Of a stretch of 34,389 bases of DNA, positions 9,283 to 34,233 are shown piece after piece. Each line of letters starts with the position of its first letter. Within the stretch, counting starts at the first letter, position 1. The DNA is from a virus. The DNA lies in IMG/VR virus record IMGVR_UViG_3300017991_000257, positions 1 to 34,389 of that record; one strand, 5' to 3'. The position numbers were made by a program, and so were the translations under genes. The notes beneath the pieces were generated by a model. It was not told where the DNA came from. It was given only the letters and a program-made list of their open reading frames with translations, and ran no database searches.

Positions 9283-10242
<960 letters not shown>

Positions 10243-21147: not shown

Positions 21148-21528
21148 ATGCGCGAACTAGACGCAAAGACGGTTTTAGCGATAGCCTGGCACCAGGCCCG
21201 GGTATCGCCGTTGCGTCCGGTTTGCGACGTAAATTGGCGAATCGCCGGCGGCCTGGCGTCGCGATTGGCGGCCAAAACCGGGACGGTTGCATGGTACGAC
21301 GCCAAGGCCGACGCGGTCGTAATCCCCGCCCAATATGCGTCGGTTTGCGCGGACGAAATGTACGCGCCGACGATAACCCATGAACTGACCCACGCTTACC
21401 AATGCTTGCGAATGGGTTTTATCTGCTTTCAATTCGCTAAAACCTTCCGCCGTCGGCTAATTGAGGCCGAGGCCGTCCGCGAGGAAAAGCGCGCGCAAAA
21501 AATACTAAACGTCGGGGTCCTGGACTAA
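21148..21528 (+). CDS. Putative zinc metallopeptidase (HExxH)
   Basis: This 126-residue protein has TITHELTHAYQ at residues 75-85 (H78, E79, H82), the HExxH zinc-binding signature of metallopeptidases, with a nearby EAEA (about 106-109) that could supply the third ligand. It lies between adhesion proteins, so it may cleave host surface proteins or a maturing virion protein. I saw no signal peptide. Start ATG 21148 follows the LamG stop by 5 bases and the TAATG links it to the next gene. It is short for a stand-alone peptidase, so it may be a minimal catalytic core. Confidence 0.62.
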   Translation: MRELDAKTVLAIAWHQARVSPLRPVCDVNWRIAGGLASRLAAKTGTVAWYDAKADAVVIPAQYASVCADEMYAPTITHELTHAYQCLRMGFICFQFAKTFRRRLIEAEAVREEKRAQKILNVGVLD

Positions 21529-22496
21529 TGGCGGGTTGGGATACAAATTGGGTCGAATCCCAGGGGATAGGAAAACTTCCCCTAAACGCGTTCAACCAAT
21601 TGCGCGCGGCCCTGGCGGAACGGGCCGCGGTAATGAATAGCGCGCCGACCTTGCCGGCGAACCTTTCCGCCGGCGAATTGCCGTCGGCGTCCTGGTTTAC
21701 GACGTTTCAATCCGCGGTTACGGCAATGTTGCCGGCGTCCCCGTCCGGGTCCCTTTATGGTTGGGTCAACCATAACGATAGCGCGACGCGCGTTGGCTAT
21801 TGGGACGGCGCGGCCTGGGGGGCAAACGCCGGGCCTAGTCTTTCGTTTTGGTCACAATCGACAATGCTAACGCAAATCGGGGCCGCGTCGCGGGTCGCGG
21901 CGCCAGGCGCCGGGGATATTTGGCAATCCGCGGCATGGGCCTACCAACAGTATCAGATACTAAATCAATTACGATGGTATGGCCGCCTGGCGCCGGAATC
22001 CTTGTCAACAAACGTATTTTACAAATACGGAAGTTCGGCCATAGACTATCCGACGGCCGCGGCAATCCATGACGCAATGGCATGGGCCGCGGTTTCGACG
22101 GCGCCCGTTCCCAACAATACCCGGAACAACTGTTGGCAGGCCCAGGCCGTCGGGGGGTCCTTTTGGAAACAATCCATTAAATGGGTTTGGTCCTGGTCAA
22201 CCTGGGGGGTATCGTCCGCGGAGTTCGACGTTTACGTTAGGCCGAACCAATTAACCGGCGGCCCCGTCTACAATATGCACACGGCAAACGTCGCCAACTA
22301 TGTAAAAAATATAACTGTCGCCCCTAGTACGGGATTTGAATACGGCGGGACCCACGCGCTAACCCCGACGCTAAACAATACGATTTGGTTCCGGGCGACG
22401 TCGAATTGGTACGGGCTATATCTAGTCGTCAAGTTCGACGTTTCGGGGGGATTCGACTACTACGACCCGGACCCGCCGGCTACGACGACGACCTAG
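21528..22496 (+). CDS. Putative tail adhesion protein with 4-Thr tail
   Basis: This 322-residue protein is not recognised by family. It is Trp- and Tyr-rich (for example WKQSIKWVWSWSTWGVSSAEFDVYV), with a helical start (LNAFNQLRAALAERAAV) and a beta-rich end. Its C-terminus reads DPDPPATTTT and then TAG, giving a short version of the Thr tail found on other virion proteins. It follows the metallopeptidase by a TAATG overlap and is the last gene before the lysis candidates. I infer a virion role from position and tail. Confidence 0.5.
   Translation: MAGWDTNWVESQGIGKLPLNAFNQLRAALAERAAVMNSAPTLPANLSAGELPSASWFTTFQSAVTAMLPASPSGSLYGWVNHNDSATRVGYWDGAAWGANAGPSLSFWSQSTMLTQIGAASRVAAPGAGDIWQSAAWAYQQYQILNQLRWYGRLAPESLSTNVFYKYGSSAIDYPTAAAIHDAMAWAAVSTAPVPNNTRNNCWQAQAVGGSFWKQSIKWVWSWSTWGVSSAEFDVYVRPNQLTGGPVYNMHTANVANYVKNITVAPSTGFEYGGTHALTPTLNNTIWFRATSNWYGLYLVVKFDVSGGFDYYDPDPPATTTT
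22482..22493 (+). repeat. Short Thr-codon run coding 4 Thr
   Basis: Four Thr codons (ACG ACG ACG ACC) directly before TAG. Too short to be convincing alone, but it fits the pattern of the five longer runs. Confidence 0.7.
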
Positions 22497-28226: not shown

Positions 28227-29030
28227 ATGGCTATCCTTTACAAGACGGAACGCGACAATTCGCATTGGTACACGCGCGACGGCAATCCGCAACATTTCAC
28301 CCCGGGCCGCAACGGAAAGGAACGGCCGGTATGGATTACCGACGCCCGGCGCCTGGGATTGTTGCCTAGCGTTACCAATATCCTGGGAATAATCGCAAAA
28401 CCCCAATTGGAAAACTGGAAACTAAAACAGGTCGCCATAGCGGCGTTGCGCAACCCCCGCGGCCAGGACGAACCCGAAGACTACTACATAGACCGTTTGG
28501 TGGAAATGTCCAAAATGGGCGTTAAGGACGCCGCGGACCTTGGAACTAGGGTCCATGCCGCATTGGACGCCGCATTGGCCGGCAACCCCTATCCCGACGA
28601 CCTGGCGCCATACGTTAGGCCCGTCGTCGAATGGCGGAACCAAACCGAAATAGAAATAACCGAAAGGGAAATCGTAGTAACGAACAACGCCGAAGGTTAC
28701 GCCGGCCGCGTCGACGTCCTTTTCAGTTACGGAAAATCCGGGATTGGAATCCTTGACTACAAGACGCGCAAGACTAAACCCGGCGAACCTTGCCAGGCTT
28801 ACGACGGACAGGCCGCGCAACTGGCGGCCTATGCCGCGGCGTACTACGGCGCCGAACGGTTGCAACGCGTCCTAATGGCTAATATTTTTATCTCGTCGAC
28901 CGAACCCGGGCGAATGGACGTTGTAAAGCACGACGACCCCGAACGGCATTACGCCTATTTCCTGGCGGCCGCGGCCGTATGGCGTTACGCCAAGGATTAC
29001 GACCCGCGAAAGGCAACCGGCAATGAATAG
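28227..29030 (+). CDS. PD-(D/E)XK nuclease (RecB / Cas4-like exonuclease)
   Basis: This 267-residue protein has the PD-(D/E)XK signature: H110 (GTRVHAAL), YAGRVDVLF (D163), GIGILDYKTRK (D177, K179) and QLAAYAAAY (Q198). These match phage and RecB-type nucleases used in recombination and end processing. It directly precedes DNA polymerase, with overlap of 8 bases. ATG 28227 follows AAAAGGCAGGGG. Confidence 0.85.
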   Translation: MAILYKTERDNSHWYTRDGNPQHFTPGRNGKERPVWITDARRLGLLPSVTNILGIIAKPQLENWKLKQVAIAALRNPRGQDEPEDYYIDRLVEMSKMGVKDAADLGTRVHAALDAALAGNPYPDDLAPYVRPVVEWRNQTEIEITEREIVVTNNAEGYAGRVDVLFSYGKSGIGILDYKTRKTKPGEPCQAYDGQAAQLAAYAAAYYGAERLQRVLMANIFISSTEPGRMDVVKHDDPERHYAYFLAAAAVWRYAKDYDPRKATGNE

Positions 29031-31020
29031 CGAACGGCGCCAACAATTGCTAGACCTTTCAACCGACGGCGGGGACGCCGCGGAAATAGCGACGGCGGAT
29101 TTGTTCGCGGAATTTGACGACAACCGGCCGGACCCGGGCTACCCCAAGGGGGCGCCCAGCCCCTGCCCGGCCGAATCCGACAACCCCCAGGGACCCGGGC
29201 CGGCCGGCCTATCCGAAATCCCCGAGATTCCCGACGGGGATTTCCCCCTGGCCCTGGATTTCGAAACCTACTACGACAAGGATTGCACGGTTAGCGAAAT
29301 GGGTTATTGGCGATACGCGCACCATCCCAAATTCCGGGTTTTGCTCGTCGGGTACGCGTACCGGCAACCCGGCGGGGATATACATTGCGGCGCCGTCGAC
29401 CCCCGGATTTTCCCCTGGGGGTCGATAACCGGGCGCCAGGTCCTGGCCCATAACGCCGCATTTGATATGGCCGTTTATTCCCGTTTAGCAGAAGATGGAA
29501 CGGCCCCCGCCGGCTACGAACCCCGGGAATGGATAGATACCGCGGCAATGTCGCGCTATTTCCAATGCCCCGGCGATTTGGCCGGCGCGGCCTTGGCTAT
29601 CCTGGGAACCGTCGTCGACAAGGCGCCGCGCGACAACGCCAAGGGGGCGACCATGGCGACCCCCGAATATGCCCGCTATTGCGCCCAGGACGCGCGCCTA
29701 TGCCTTGAACTTTGGGAATCCGCCGGCAAGTATTGGCCCACGGCCGAACGTCGAATTTCGGCCCTAACAATGGAAATTGGCCGGCGAGGAATCGCGGTCG
29801 ACCCGGCGGCCTGGCGGACCCTTGGCAAACTTACCGGCGACCTTGAAACCTTGGACGCGAGTTTCCCATGGTCGGGGACGGCCCCGCCGACGTCGCCAAA
29901 GGCGCTAAAGGACTATTGCGCGCTAAAGGGATTCGAACCCCCGGAATCCACGGACATTAAATCCCCGAAATTCATAACCTGGGCCGCAAATTCCCGCGGC
30001 GAAATCCGGGATTTGGTCGGCAAGATGCAGACCCGGCGAAGGCTAAACCGGCGGATTTCCGTATTGCGCGCCATGTATAACCGGACGTTCCCGACGCAAC
30101 CCGCCGGCGAAAGGCTGGAAACCTATCTAAAGTATTGCGGCGCCGCGCCTGGCCGATGGTCCGGCGGGGGCCGCGGCTGGAACCCCCAAAACATAAATTC
30201 CGATGGTGAATTTTGCGACGTCCGGGGATTTTTGGTCCCCGCCCCCGGAAAGGTTTTCGGGGTTATCGACCTGGCCCAAATTGAGGCCCGGATATTGCTA
30301 TGGCTGGCCGGCGACCATGACACCCTGGACCGAATCCGGGCGGGATTGGGCGTCTATGAGGCCCACGCCCGCGCAACCATGCATTGGACCGGGGGCGACC
30401 TAAAATCCGAAAACCCGAGGCTATACAAACTGGCAAAGGCCCGCGTTTTGGGCCTGGGATACGGTTGCGGCGCCGGTAAATTCGCCGTCGTCGCAAAGGC
30501 TATGGCCGGCCTTGACCTGGACCCCAAACTGGCCGCGTCTATCGTCCGCGACTATCGCAAGACAAACGCCCCGATTTGCGCGTATTGGGACAAACTGGAA
30601 AGCGAATGTATGGCGGCCGCCGGGACGCCGTCGCTAACGTTTGCGTCCGTCTTGCCGTCGGGACGGCAAATCCTATACCGAAACGTCAAGGTTACGGACA
30701 AGGGACCCGACAAAAAACCGGAATTGACCGCGGAACAGATAAAGGGGGAAAGGCCGGTCCGCCTATGGGGCGCCATATTGGCCGAAAACGCGGTCCAGGG
30801 GACGGCAAGGGACGTTTTCGCGGACCGTCTTTTGGCGTTGTCGGCGTCCGCGTTCCGCGCCGTCCTTTTGGTACATGATGAATACGTTTTGGAACTGGAC
30901 CAGGACCGCGCGCCGCAACTGCTGGAAACCGCTATGGCCATTGTCCGCAAAACGCCGGAATGGGCCGCGGATTTGCCCCTGGATTGTGAAGGGAAATTAA
31001 TGGAAAGGTACGCGAAATGA
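29023..31020 (+). CDS. DNA polymerase, family A
   Basis: This 665-residue protein has a DEDD 3'-5' exonuclease at the front (LALDFETYYDKD: D79, E81; VLAHNAAFDMAVYS; YARYCAQDARLCLELW) and a family A polymerase core. Motif A appears as VIDLAQIEARI (about residues 414-424), motif B as RVLGLGYGCGAGKF (about 472-486) and motif C as LLVHDEYVLEL (about 615-625). Motif A has DLAQIEAR in place of the usual DYSQIELR, a form found in other phage polymerases. It replicates the phage genome. It overlaps the nuclease gene upstream and the next gene as ATGA. Confidence 0.93.
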   Translation: MNSERRQQLLDLSTDGGDAAEIATADLFAEFDDNRPDPGYPKGAPSPCPAESDNPQGPGPAGLSEIPEIPDGDFPLALDFETYYDKDCTVSEMGYWRYAHHPKFRVLLVGYAYRQPGGDIHCGAVDPRIFPWGSITGRQVLAHNAAFDMAVYSRLAEDGTAPAGYEPREWIDTAAMSRYFQCPGDLAGAALAILGTVVDKAPRDNAKGATMATPEYARYCAQDARLCLELWESAGKYWPTAERRISALTMEIGRRGIAVDPAAWRTLGKLTGDLETLDASFPWSGTAPPTSPKALKDYCALKGFEPPESTDIKSPKFITWAANSRGEIRDLVGKMQTRRRLNRRISVLRAMYNRTFPTQPAGERLETYLKYCGAAPGRWSGGGRGWNPQNINSDGEFCDVRGFLVPAPGKVFGVIDLAQIEARILLWLAGDHDTLDRIRAGLGVYEAHARATMHWTGGDLKSENPRLYKLAKARVLGLGYGCGAGKFAVVAKAMAGLDLDPKLAASIVRDYRKTNAPICAYWDKLESECMAAAGTPSLTFASVLPSGRQILYRNVKVTDKGPDKKPELTAEQIKGERPVRLWGAILAENAVQGTARDVFADRLLALSASAFRAVLLVHDEYVLELDQDRAPQLLETAMAIVRKTPEWAADLPLDCEGKLMERYAK

Positions 31021-31384: not shown

Positions 31385-31681
31385 ATGAAAACCATGTTTA
31401 CGCATAGTGAACTAATAACGAATAGTTTAGCAATAACCATAATGGAAGTATTAGGGGAGGTTGGGATTGTCGTTAGTGTTAGTTATGGACCCATGAAAAA
31501 CCCCGTTGGCGTTTACGAACGCCGATGGTCCGTACAATGCTTAAACACTACAAATAACGCCCAATTTGAACGGCCATACGCGGCGGAATCCTATCGCCAG
31601 GCCGTCGCCATTGCCGTTAACGAATGTAAAAAACGGGGATGGATTCCCGCGGACGTTGAGGATGTAGACACCCGCCCATGA
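31385..31681 (+). CDS. Hypothetical protein with AT-rich, atypical 5' half
   Basis: I choose ATG 31385, giving 98 aa, because the text GGAGGTGAT at 31369-31377, a full Shine-Dalgarno match, lies just upstream. An alternative GTG at 31373 would make it 102 aa and overlap the preceding stop. The first half is clearly more AT-rich than any neighbour (for example TTAGCAATAACC). The C-terminal part has SYRQAVAIAVNECKKRGW. No family is recognised. It ends ATGA-overlapping the primase gene. Confidence 0.6.
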   Translation: MKTMFTHSELITNSLAITIMEVLGEVGIVVSVSYGPMKNPVGVYERRWSVQCLNTTNNAQFERPYAAESYRQAVAIAVNECKKRGWIPADVEDVDTRP

Positions 31682-32559
31682 TACTAACCCCCTATTCCGC
31701 GTCAACCGCGCGCCTGTTGGCGGACCCCCCGGCGACGGGCAAGGGGCGCCATTTGTGGCTATTCAAGGTCGCGGCGCGATTAATCCACGCCGGCGCCGAC
31801 CCCCAGGACGTCGAACGGCGCCTAACGGACTACGCCGTCCGCCATGGCTGGCGCGATAGGGTCCGGCAAATCCCAAAGGACATAGAAAAAATTACCCGGC
31901 ACGTTGCCCAAGGCGTCGCGAGGCCGGCCGCGCGGGTATCCTGGCCGCCGGCAAACGACAACGCGCGCCGGCTATTGTTCAAGGCGCCGCGGTTGTTCGA
32001 ACCCGAACCATGCCTAGCGACCGCGGCCGACGCATTGGCCGCATTGTACGACCCCAAGGAACTGGTTTGCGTCGCGCCGGCCATGACCAACGCCCATACA
32101 ATGCGGGTCCTGGAGTTCGCGCCGTCGGCCGCGACATTGCAATTCATCGTAGCAAACCCAATGCGCGCCAGGTCCGGCCGGACCCAGGACGGCAACCCGT
32201 CCGCGCGTTGTTTGGAAAACGCCGGCGACCCCGACCGGCGCCGTTTCGTCGTCGTCGAGTTCGACACCGGGGACGCGTTGCCCGACCAGGCCGCGGTATT
32301 GTCGGCGCTATCGTCGCCATTGGCGCCCCTAGTCATGGCCGTATTTAGCGGCGGGAAGTCTATCCACGGTTGGTATAGGGTAGACGGTTTGCCGTCAAAA
32401 AAGCACGTTCTAGCGTTGTTTGCCTATGCCGTTTACCTGGGGGCCGACCCTAGCCTATGGGATATGGCTAAATTGGTCCGTTTCCCCGGCGGAATCCGCG
32501 ACGGCAACATACCACAACCTATTTTTTACCTTAAAGGGGGTCCGAACCATGCCCGATAA
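31678..32559 (+). CDS. AEP-type primase
   Basis: This 293-residue protein carries features of archaeo-eukaryotic-type primases: VVEFDTGD at about residues 192-199 (hh-D/E-x-D theme, metal binding), SGGKSIHGWYRVDG (224-237), in which SGxKSxH is the nucleotide-binding motif, and DMAKLVRFPGGIRDG (262-276), in which R-x-P-G/x-x-R is typical. It primes DNA synthesis. The N-terminal part (1-100) is helical. It overlaps the helicase start by 11 bases. Confidence 0.82.
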   Translation: MILTPYSASTARLLADPPATGKGRHLWLFKVAARLIHAGADPQDVERRLTDYAVRHGWRDRVRQIPKDIEKITRHVAQGVARPAARVSWPPANDNARRLLFKAPRLFEPEPCLATAADALAALYDPKELVCVAPAMTNAHTMRVLEFAPSAATLQFIVANPMRARSGRTQDGNPSARCLENAGDPDRRRFVVVEFDTGDALPDQAAVLSALSSPLAPLVMAVFSGGKSIHGWYRVDGLPSKKHVLALFAYAVYLGADPSLWDMAKLVRFPGGIRDGNIPQPIFYLKGGPNHAR

Positions 32560-33781
32560 AGAAACCCCGGCGACAACGGCGCCGGCGGACGCCAACCCCT
32601 GGTTTTCGGATTTGCAGTTTCGCGCCTGGCTGGAACAATCCGGCCAGGCCCCTACAATCCTTCCCCCCAACGTTTCCCCGATAGACCTTTTGGATTTCCC
32701 CGTTAACGCGGACCCTAGCGAACTTATACCTAGCCGTTACCTATGCCGCGGCGGGTCGTTACTGTTGGCGGCGCCAACCGGCGTCGGGAAATCGTCGTTT
32801 ATCGTGCAATTCGCGATATCCGCGGCCGTAGGTCGCGATTTTTTCGGAATGGCATTTAACCGTCCGCTATCCGCCGTCATAGTCCAGGCCGAAAACGACC
32901 TGGGGGACCTTGCCGAAATCTACCAGGGGGTTTTTCACGCGTTTAGCGCCGGCGTCGACGGCGTCCCCGCGTTGTCCGTACCGGAAACCGAACTAGTAGC
33001 CAAAAACCTAACGTTCTACCGCGAAACCGCGCGTTCCGGCAAGGCATTTGCGGACGTTATCCGCGCCATTGCCGAAAGACACGCCCCGGACCTAATAATA
33101 GTCGACCCGGCATTGGCGTTTTTAGGCGGGGATTCGTCCGCCCAGGTCGACGTTTCGGCATGGTTGCGTAACCATATCCAGCCCGTATTACTTGAAACCG
33201 GCGTTTGCCTTGTCGTCGTACATCATAGCCCCAAACCGTTACGCCAGGCCCAGGGGCGCGACCTATGGGCCGCCGAGGATTTCGCCTACCTGGGGGCCGG
33301 GTCCGCCGAATGGGCCAATTGGGCGCGCGCCGTTTTGGTTCTAATCCGAACCGAAACCCCCGGCGTTTTCGTTTTGGTCGCGGCAAAGCGGGGAAACCGG
33401 CTAGGCTGGAAGGACGCCGACGGAAAACCCGTCCGCGAACGATTGATATCCCACGCCCGCGACCTGGACCGTATATATTGGCGCGACCCCGACTATGAGG
33501 AAACCCACAAAGAGACAAAGCGCAAGATAGCCGCGGAAGGTTTCCAGCGATTGGGCGAAGTGTTCTACGACGACAACGAACGCGCCGCGGGATTGCCGGC
33601 GCGCGAAATCATAGACCGCGCCATTACCCGACATATCACAAAGACGAAAAACCCCCGTCCCATGGTCCATAAGTGGATTACCGGACCCCAGGCGCGCGCC
33701 GTCGCGGCCGGCGTCCTGGAATCTTGCGGCGACGGTTTGTATAGGCCAAAACCCCCCGCGCCAACCAACGTACCATTTTAA
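32549..33781 (+). CDS. RecA-like replicative helicase / RepA-type ATPase
   Basis: This 410-residue protein has a Walker A at LLAAPTGVGKSSF (residues 72-84), Walker B at DLIIVDPALAFLGG (about 181-194) and a sensor strand CLVVVHHSPKP, which fits the AAA_25 / RepA-like helicase group. The C-terminus from about 325 is a winged-helix-like domain (PAREIIDRAITRHITKTKNPRPMVHKWI). With the primase it unwinds DNA at the fork. I chose ATG 32549 after AAAGGGGGTCCGAACC; the frame is open further upstream but shadows the primase. Confidence 0.86.
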   Translation: MPDKETPATTAPADANPWFSDLQFRAWLEQSGQAPTILPPNVSPIDLLDFPVNADPSELIPSRYLCRGGSLLLAAPTGVGKSSFIVQFAISAAVGRDFFGMAFNRPLSAVIVQAENDLGDLAEIYQGVFHAFSAGVDGVPALSVPETELVAKNLTFYRETARSGKAFADVIRAIAERHAPDLIIVDPALAFLGGDSSAQVDVSAWLRNHIQPVLLETGVCLVVVHHSPKPLRQAQGRDLWAAEDFAYLGAGSAEWANWARAVLVLIRTETPGVFVLVAAKRGNRLGWKDADGKPVRERLISHARDLDRIYWRDPDYEETHKETKRKIAAEGFQRLGEVFYDDNERAAGLPAREIIDRAITRHITKTKNPRPMVHKWITGPQARAVAAGVLESCGDGLYRPKPPAPTNVPF

Positions 33782-34020
33782 CCTATAGGCTAAACAATGT
33801 TAGATAGCGTAACCGCTAACCGTAACCGCCCCGTTACCGGCGTAACCGGCTATTCTCGCCTTGGGTACCGAGAGGGGGCGTATACCGTACCCGTAACCTC
33901 CCCCCCCTGTAAAGGGGGGGGGGGTTACGTTAGGGACGGTTACGCCCCCGGCCCCTGGCCGGCCCGTATCCGGTTACGCTATTGGTTACGGTTACACCAA
34001 CAACGAAAGGATAAAAAGAA
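33782..34020. other. Symmetrical GTAACC / GGTTAC repeat array (candidate origin or control region)
   Basis: This is the largest gap in the window apart from the end. GTAACC occurs four times in forward form (33809, 33822, 33842, 33893) and then GGTTAC occurs five times in reverse form (33923, 33938, 33972, 33984, 33990), with a few near copies such as GTTACC at 33833. The two sets face each other around a hairpin at 33893-33928. A CCTATAGG palindrome lies at 33782-33789. Repeats with inverted orientation around a hairpin are typical of origin or partition-like sites, but no binding protein is recognised. A reading frame (33797-34060) crosses the array but is not taken as a gene. Confidence 0.8.
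33893..33928 (+). terminator. 15-pair hairpin at the centre of the repeat array
   Basis: GTAACCT followed by eight C (33893-33907) faces eleven G followed by TTAC (33914-33928), with a 6-base TGTAAA loop. In RNA the stem is 15 pairs with one G-U pair. There is no U-tract after it, so a terminator role is uncertain. It could equally be the core of an origin or a polymerase-blocking structure. Confidence 0.5.
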
Positions 34021-34233
34021 ATGCAGACGCCGAACAAGACTAGCGAACAACGCGGGTTAAAGAAACTACGCGACCCCGGCGGCTGGCTAGTCCGCGCCGA
34101 ACATCCCGAATGGTCGCGGCCTAACCGAAAGGCCGCGGCAAGGATTATAGCGCGCCAGGCGCGCGCAAAGGCCCAAGGAATGGACAATAGGTCCCAGGGG
34201 TATACCTTGCCCGGGTCGGCAAAGAAAGTTTAA
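34021..34233 (+). CDS. Small basic hypothetical protein
   Basis: This 70-residue protein is basic and helical (SEQRGLKKLRDPGGWLVRAEHPEWSRPNRKAAARIIARQARAKAQG). ATG 34021 follows CGAAAGGATAAAAAGA, a good ribosome binding site. No family is recognised. It starts immediately after the repeat array. Confidence 0.6.
   Translation: MQTPNKTSEQRGLKKLRDPGGWLVRAEHPEWSRPNRKAAARIIARQARAKAQGMDNRSQGYTLPGSAKKV

Follow-up and report, generated by a model that had tools for sequence, protein, structure and literature searches.

What role might be played by a short word repeated many times directly behind the helicase gene of a virus, in DNA that seems to encode no protein? The question was raised by an initial annotation of IMG/VR record IMGVR_UViG_3300017991_000257, all 34,389 nt of which we analysed as a single window, and which suggested a replication origin, a pause site or a partition-like site. 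A word search found four + strand copies of GTAACC here, at 33809, 33822, 33842 and 33893, and five − strand copies, at 33923, 33938, 33972, 33984 and 33990. Nine exact copies of GTAACC/GGTTAC therefore lie within 187 bp (33809–33995), four forward and then five reverse, at exactly the positions originally annotated. Outside the array there are 22 copies in 34 kb, the number expected by chance (21.9). When the segment 33782–34020 was shuffled with its dinucleotides preserved, the mean was 0.9 copies and the maximum five; none of 20,000 shuffles reached nine. The array is thereby confirmed as annotated, with one caution: the strict switch in orientation is weak by itself, having a probability of ∼4% for nine sites and any split point, and arrays found elsewhere mix their orientations.

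The iteron together with its flanking bases is best given as CGTAACCG. The left set (33809–33847, + strand) consists of the exact copies at 33809, 33822 and 33842, and is interleaved with the one-mismatch copies CTAACC at 33816 and GTTACC at 33833, which bring the spacing to 7, 6, 11 and 9. The fourth forward iteron (33893–33898) has a one-mismatch GTACCC alongside it at 33887. On the − strand, the iterons at 33923 and 33938 (together 33923–33943) are followed by a right set (33972–33995) with copies at 33972, 33984 and 33990. This spacing is looser than the usual 8–12 bp, unless the one-mismatch copies are counted. The GC-rich hairpin reported at the orientation switch is indeed present (33892–33929). 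It has a C8 TGTAAA G11 core and arms of 17 nt with one mismatch (33892–33908 and 33913–33929), each carrying one iteron (33893 forward, 33923 reverse), and its DNA fold of −20.3 kcal/mol has a z-score of −4.3. The hairpin forms the tip of a longer imperfect palindrome of 76 nt (33874–33949; −37.6 kcal/mol, z −6.6). AT-rich DNA lies on both sides, ∼60% AT at 33761–33820 and 57–65% AT at 33981–34040, the latter overlapping the start of the gene at 34021, as compared with 42% for the whole virus. These flanks are possible unwinding elements.

The array adjoins replication genes, as had been noted. Immediately before it is the gene for a replicative helicase of the RecA-like AAA_25 family (32549–33781, + strand; PF13481, E = 9e-22, with matches to PHROG DNA primase/helicase families), which probably starts at the ATG at 32549 and whose stop codon is 28 nt ahead of the first iteron. 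Just upstream of it on the same strand is a putative primase (31678–32559), for which the only family match is phrog_2597, DNA primase, at E = 0.006; the assignment relies on this weak match and on the motifs EFD, SGGKSIH and RFPGG, read by eye, which suggest the AEP/PrimPol type. Further upstream, also on the + strand, are a PD-(D/E)XK exonuclease (28227–29030; Pfam and PHROG matches) and a family A DNA polymerase (29023–31020; PF00476, E = 3e-14, phrog_17). The order is thus exonuclease, polymerase, two small genes, putative primase and AAA_25 helicase, and the virus has a replication set of its own in the exonuclease, polymerase, helicase and putative primase. A structure model of the helicase from its single sequence (pLDDT 38) was too poor to reveal a DNA-binding domain or tail, and a search by sequence found no relative of the helicase with a solved structure.

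Could the repeats be a by-product of coding? An open frame of 87 codons (33797–34060) crosses the array. Its codon score is −0.09, as against 0.31 to 0.53 for 17 reference genes of the virus and 0.21 to 0.33 for the small genes at 31017, 31373 and 34021, and it had no match in Pfam or PHROG. We therefore rejected the coding explanation, in which frames of the VTGVTG-like type would generate the repeats, since the frame in the window scores below every gene compared; the earlier statement that coding does not account for the array is borne out. With this frame non-coding, the array lies in a gap of ∼240 bp that separates the helicase stop codon (33781) from the following gene, which encodes a small basic protein of 70 amino acids (34021–34233, + strand; AAAGGA before the ATG, codon score 0.21).

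We then looked for the same arrangement elsewhere. Neither megablast nor protein searches with the helicase, the terminase and the portal found a close relative of the virus in IMG/VR or among named phages; the best helicase match among named phages was to Wolbachia phage WO, at ∼25% identity. Relatives of the polymerase were found, and were rejected as relatives of the virus because they have no other window protein in common. In the open-access literature we found no paper describing GTAACC as a phage origin repeat. IMG/VR and GTDB genomes were scanned for clustered GTAACCG. As matches are often coding repeats, these were removed before counting, as were duplicates, and 76 distinct intergenic GTAACC arrays from two of the three scans were kept. 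In these, the commonest same-strand spacing is 9 bp and a G follows the word in 80%. Where the adjacent gene encodes at least 350 amino acids, it reads towards the array, which is then 3′ of the gene, in 33 cases, and away from it in six. Among 68 proteins neighbouring the viral arrays, we recognised DUF5906 (15), D5_N (8), VapE (6), DUF927 (5), Terminase_2 (5) and AAA_25 (2). A permuted word of equal composition served as control. It gave 30 loci, mostly of three to four copies, five of them intergenic and none beside a primase-helicase family, compared with 58 of 86 intergenic for GTAACC. Near the GTDB genome loci were DUF927 (5), DUF5906 (3), D5_N (2), VapE (1) and integrases (6), and none of these four helicase families appeared among the distant genes around the same loci.

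Two viral contigs, L339 and L346, reproduce the arrangement of the window, with a GTAACC array 1 and 10 nt past the stop of an AAA_25 helicase gene. The array of the first (L339:4726–4903) includes a CCCCCC-TAAA-GGGGGG hairpin that recalls the C8-TGTAAA-G11 of the window. A comparable hairpin is found in only two of the 76 arrays, and we rejected it as a general origin element. Orientations in the related arrays are mixed and the left–right symmetry is not conserved. An AT-rich stretch inside the array is usual in GTAACC arrays, yet is absent between the iteron sets of the window (rank 3 of 75).

The scans also turned up individual elements of some interest. An array of 13 copies (L409, E. coli JP538, NZ_AP025180.1, ∼3.7266 Mb; also L282) belongs to an E. 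coli island that resembles a capsid-forming PICI, as it also carries integrases, a P2-type capsid gene and genes for a toprim-domain protein and an Icd-like protein; a search of 5,426 complete E. coli genomes found this array in 46. In the cultured Flavobacterium phage FPSV-S1, eight GTAACC copies stand directly 3′ of the VapE helicase gene (L411:22061–22315), and the Flavobacterium phage pippi8-1, with a related VapE, has GGAACA repeats in the same 3′ position (L412:10688–10990). In Bordetella phage BPP-1 (L546, 26.56–27.18 kb), two plus two inverted copies of the 9-bp CGAGGCAAA surround an AT-rich hairpin ∼470–570 nt behind the primase gene.

The terminase neighbours raise the possibility that the array is instead a packaging site, a cos or pac region bound by a small terminase. 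The large terminase of the virus is encoded at 66–2057 (Pfam and PHROG matches), and, if the two ends of the record are neighbours in the genome, the array would be slightly upstream of the terminase genes. Besides the five Terminase_2-like genes of the viral scan, several of the records L084, L100, L125, L147, L185, L190, L297, L308 and L322 have GTAACC arrays ∼70–130 nt upstream of terminase-small-like genes (LTRKQELFVxELV...), and seven of these terminase-array records, some of which are fragments, contained no DUF5906, AAA_25 (above the cut-off) or DnaB_C helicase. Because GTAACC arrays also precede such genes where no helicase is recognised, we give packaging some weight, and still regard it as unlikely: replication helicases are by far the commonest neighbours of the arrays, also in satellites and chromosomal elements, and the array of the window is 28 nt behind a helicase gene.

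Elsewhere in the window, the segment 2073–6068, which separates the large terminase from portal-like genes, encodes a protein with a CxxxCxxC motif as in radical SAM enzymes and two glycosyltransferase-looking proteins (all by eye). The likely capsid protein (9283–10242) has a C-terminal run of about fifteen threonines, and the protein encoded at 21528–22496 ends in a shorter one.

Scans that require GTAACC cannot show whether the word itself is special. Loci were therefore redrawn by protein family only, with VapE taken from three phyla and DUF927 and AAA_25 from one, and an array was scored when any hexamer had at least six copies, with a shuffle p < 0.01, in the first 400 nt after the helicase gene. 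Arrays were present 3′ of 17 of 40 VapE, 15 of 29 DUF927 and 12 of 30 AAA_25 genes (44/99 in total). On the 5′ side the corresponding numbers were 0/17, 1/22 and 0/23 (1/62), and behind unrelated genes 2/82, so that the two controls together yielded arrays in three of 144 stretches. The top hexamers vary (GTTCCC, GTCCCC, GTTGCC, GTTCAC, TTCCCG and others). GTAACC was the top word in only one of the 44 family-sampled arrays, and the idea that it is a universal phage iteron was dropped. By the same measure the window has an array behind its helicase gene (nine copies, 0/300 shuffles) and none behind four other genes. Because the window passes and arrays are common behind helicases, we take its array to be a member of a widespread plan, in which GTAACC is one of many iterons.

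Mixed-orientation short intergenic repeats occur at operators and partition sites too, and in this general respect the array would also suit a role in partition, or as a set of operators to which a phage repressor or activator binds. We consider either very improbable, since the ten window genes scanned include no recognisable repressor, ParA or ParB, the array is single, and in other elements the position of such arrays tracks helicase genes. Nothing that we found supports the pause site or the partition-like site of the initial annotation.

The region might alternatively act as RNA: between the helicase gene and the gene at 34021 there would be a long structured leader or a site of processing (an RNase III site, an attenuator or an antiterminator). 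The two flanking genes are read in the same direction, and the array region as RNA has a strong predicted fold of about −117 to −119 kcal/mol, with a z-score of −6.5 against dinucleotide shuffles and of −7.4 when the iterons are kept fixed during shuffling. Good folding is nevertheless common among the other arrays (median spacer-shuffle z −3.6), and the folding in the window may therefore be incidental, or belong to an origin structure. Moreover, the array region has no Rfam match at the gathering score, there is no T run on either side of the hairpin, which also led us to reject an intrinsic terminator, comparable arrays lie between genes of several orientations, and a rod-shaped RNA needs no short repeated word at variable spacing. 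On this evidence a role as RNA seems improbable.

The preferred reading, a replication origin, draws on comparison with origins already described. A plasmid carrying pri-rep-ori of the phage-inducible island EcCICFT073 replicates and its mutants do not (PMC6092414); reading its sequence, we found 11 copies of TCTACC/GGTAGA within 290 nt after pri-rep. In PICI origins two iteron sets flank an AT-rich region (PMC6092414). The SaPI Rep protein reads iterons directly downstream of its own gene through its C-terminal domain (PMC7581432). These PICI and SaPI origins (EcCICFT073, SaPI Rep-ori) share with the window a mixed-orientation hexamer array directly 3′ of a replication gene. They differ from it in that PICIs have an AT-rich middle and Pri-Rep, whereas the window has a GC palindrome and an AAA_25 helicase and belongs to a virus with structural genes. 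As its centre is GC-rich and its AT-rich DNA lies outside the array, we did not file the window as a PICI origin, and place it only in the wider plan of P4, PICI and SaPI, with which it shares several non-coding copies of a short word, facing both ways, and a position directly 3′ of a helicase gene.

Phage P4 has 8-bp type 1 repeats (TGTTCACC) in both orientations at ori and crr, the latter 3′ of the gene for the alpha primase-helicase; unlike the window, it uses another repeat word, has two separate sites and an SF3-type alpha, and lacks a GTAACC array. In the putative origin of SCCmec, Cch2 binds short iterons downstream of cch2 through the C-terminal domain of the helicase, with inverted repeats nearby (PMC7581432); here the iteron is AAGTG, in three copies only, and the helicase is MCM-like. 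In pRN1, as in phage BIP-1, the origin includes a long stem-loop located 3′ of the gene for an AEP primase-helicase, and in pRN1 this stem-loop, of ∼100 nt, is needed for replication (PMC4234260). A stem-loop in this position is present in the window, whereas the match to a primase is weak and its helicase belongs to AAA_25 rather than SF3; for pRN1, an archaeal plasmid, and BIP-1 no iteron array has been reported. The oriV of RSF1010 (IncQ) combines iterons with a RepA helicase and a RepB′ primase that are separate proteins, and uses ssi hairpins for priming (PMC4234260). Its iterons are bound by a dedicated RepC, and no iteron binder of the RepC type was recognised among the ten window genes scanned.

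Based on these helicase-linked arrays and known origins, we conclude that the array is probably the replication origin of the virus, with a likelihood of roughly three in four. The origin originally proposed is supported in that unrelated viruses and mobile elements have such arrays immediately 3′ of their primase-helicase genes, including the functional origin of EcCICFT073 (PMC6092414). Neither of the two refutations envisaged at the outset applies, as the region is under no coding constraint and similar arrays accompany this kind of gene elsewhere. The GC-skew plot, suggested at the outset as a check for an origin, speaks against it: the skew does not switch at the array and turns near 27 kb, in a record that ends 400 bp past the array. 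Such an origin would be of a known kind, and the arrangement in the window is a variant, in which a long GC-rich palindrome takes the place of the usual AT-rich DNA between the iterons.

How might such an origin work? The iteron (C)GTAACC(G) would be bound by an initiator encoded by the virus. The most likely initiator or loader is the AAA_25 helicase, which may make contact with its C-terminal tail, possibly together with the adjacent primase. The oppositely oriented iteron sets could load two helicase rings facing each other, and the DNA would presumably open at the AT-rich flanks. Once single-stranded, the long palindrome may fold and provide a start site for the primase. A stronger version of this proposal sees the locus as a composite origin without a described precedent, in which the iterons sit on a long GC-rich palindrome, the AAA_25 helicase itself reads them in place of a separate Rep, the extruded palindrome is the primase start, and the same plan recurs across the AAA_25 helicases of many mobile elements (arrays at 12 of 30 sampled loci). 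We regard this version as conceivable and rather doubtful.

The main interest of the array lies in the general rule that it exposes. In most uncultured phages the origins are unmapped. The comparison suggests a rule that is testable at scale, namely to search the first 400 nt after any helicase gene of the VapE, D5/DUF5906, DUF927 or AAA_25 type for a hexamer repeated in both orientations. For VapE, DUF927 and AAA_25 it held in the 44 of 99 loci given above, and it could supply candidate origins and initiator–iteron pairs for many viruses and satellites. Because relatives carry different hexamers at one position, GTAACC in FPSV-S1 and GGAACA in pippi8-1, the co-evolution of initiator and iteron would be testable in cultured phages.
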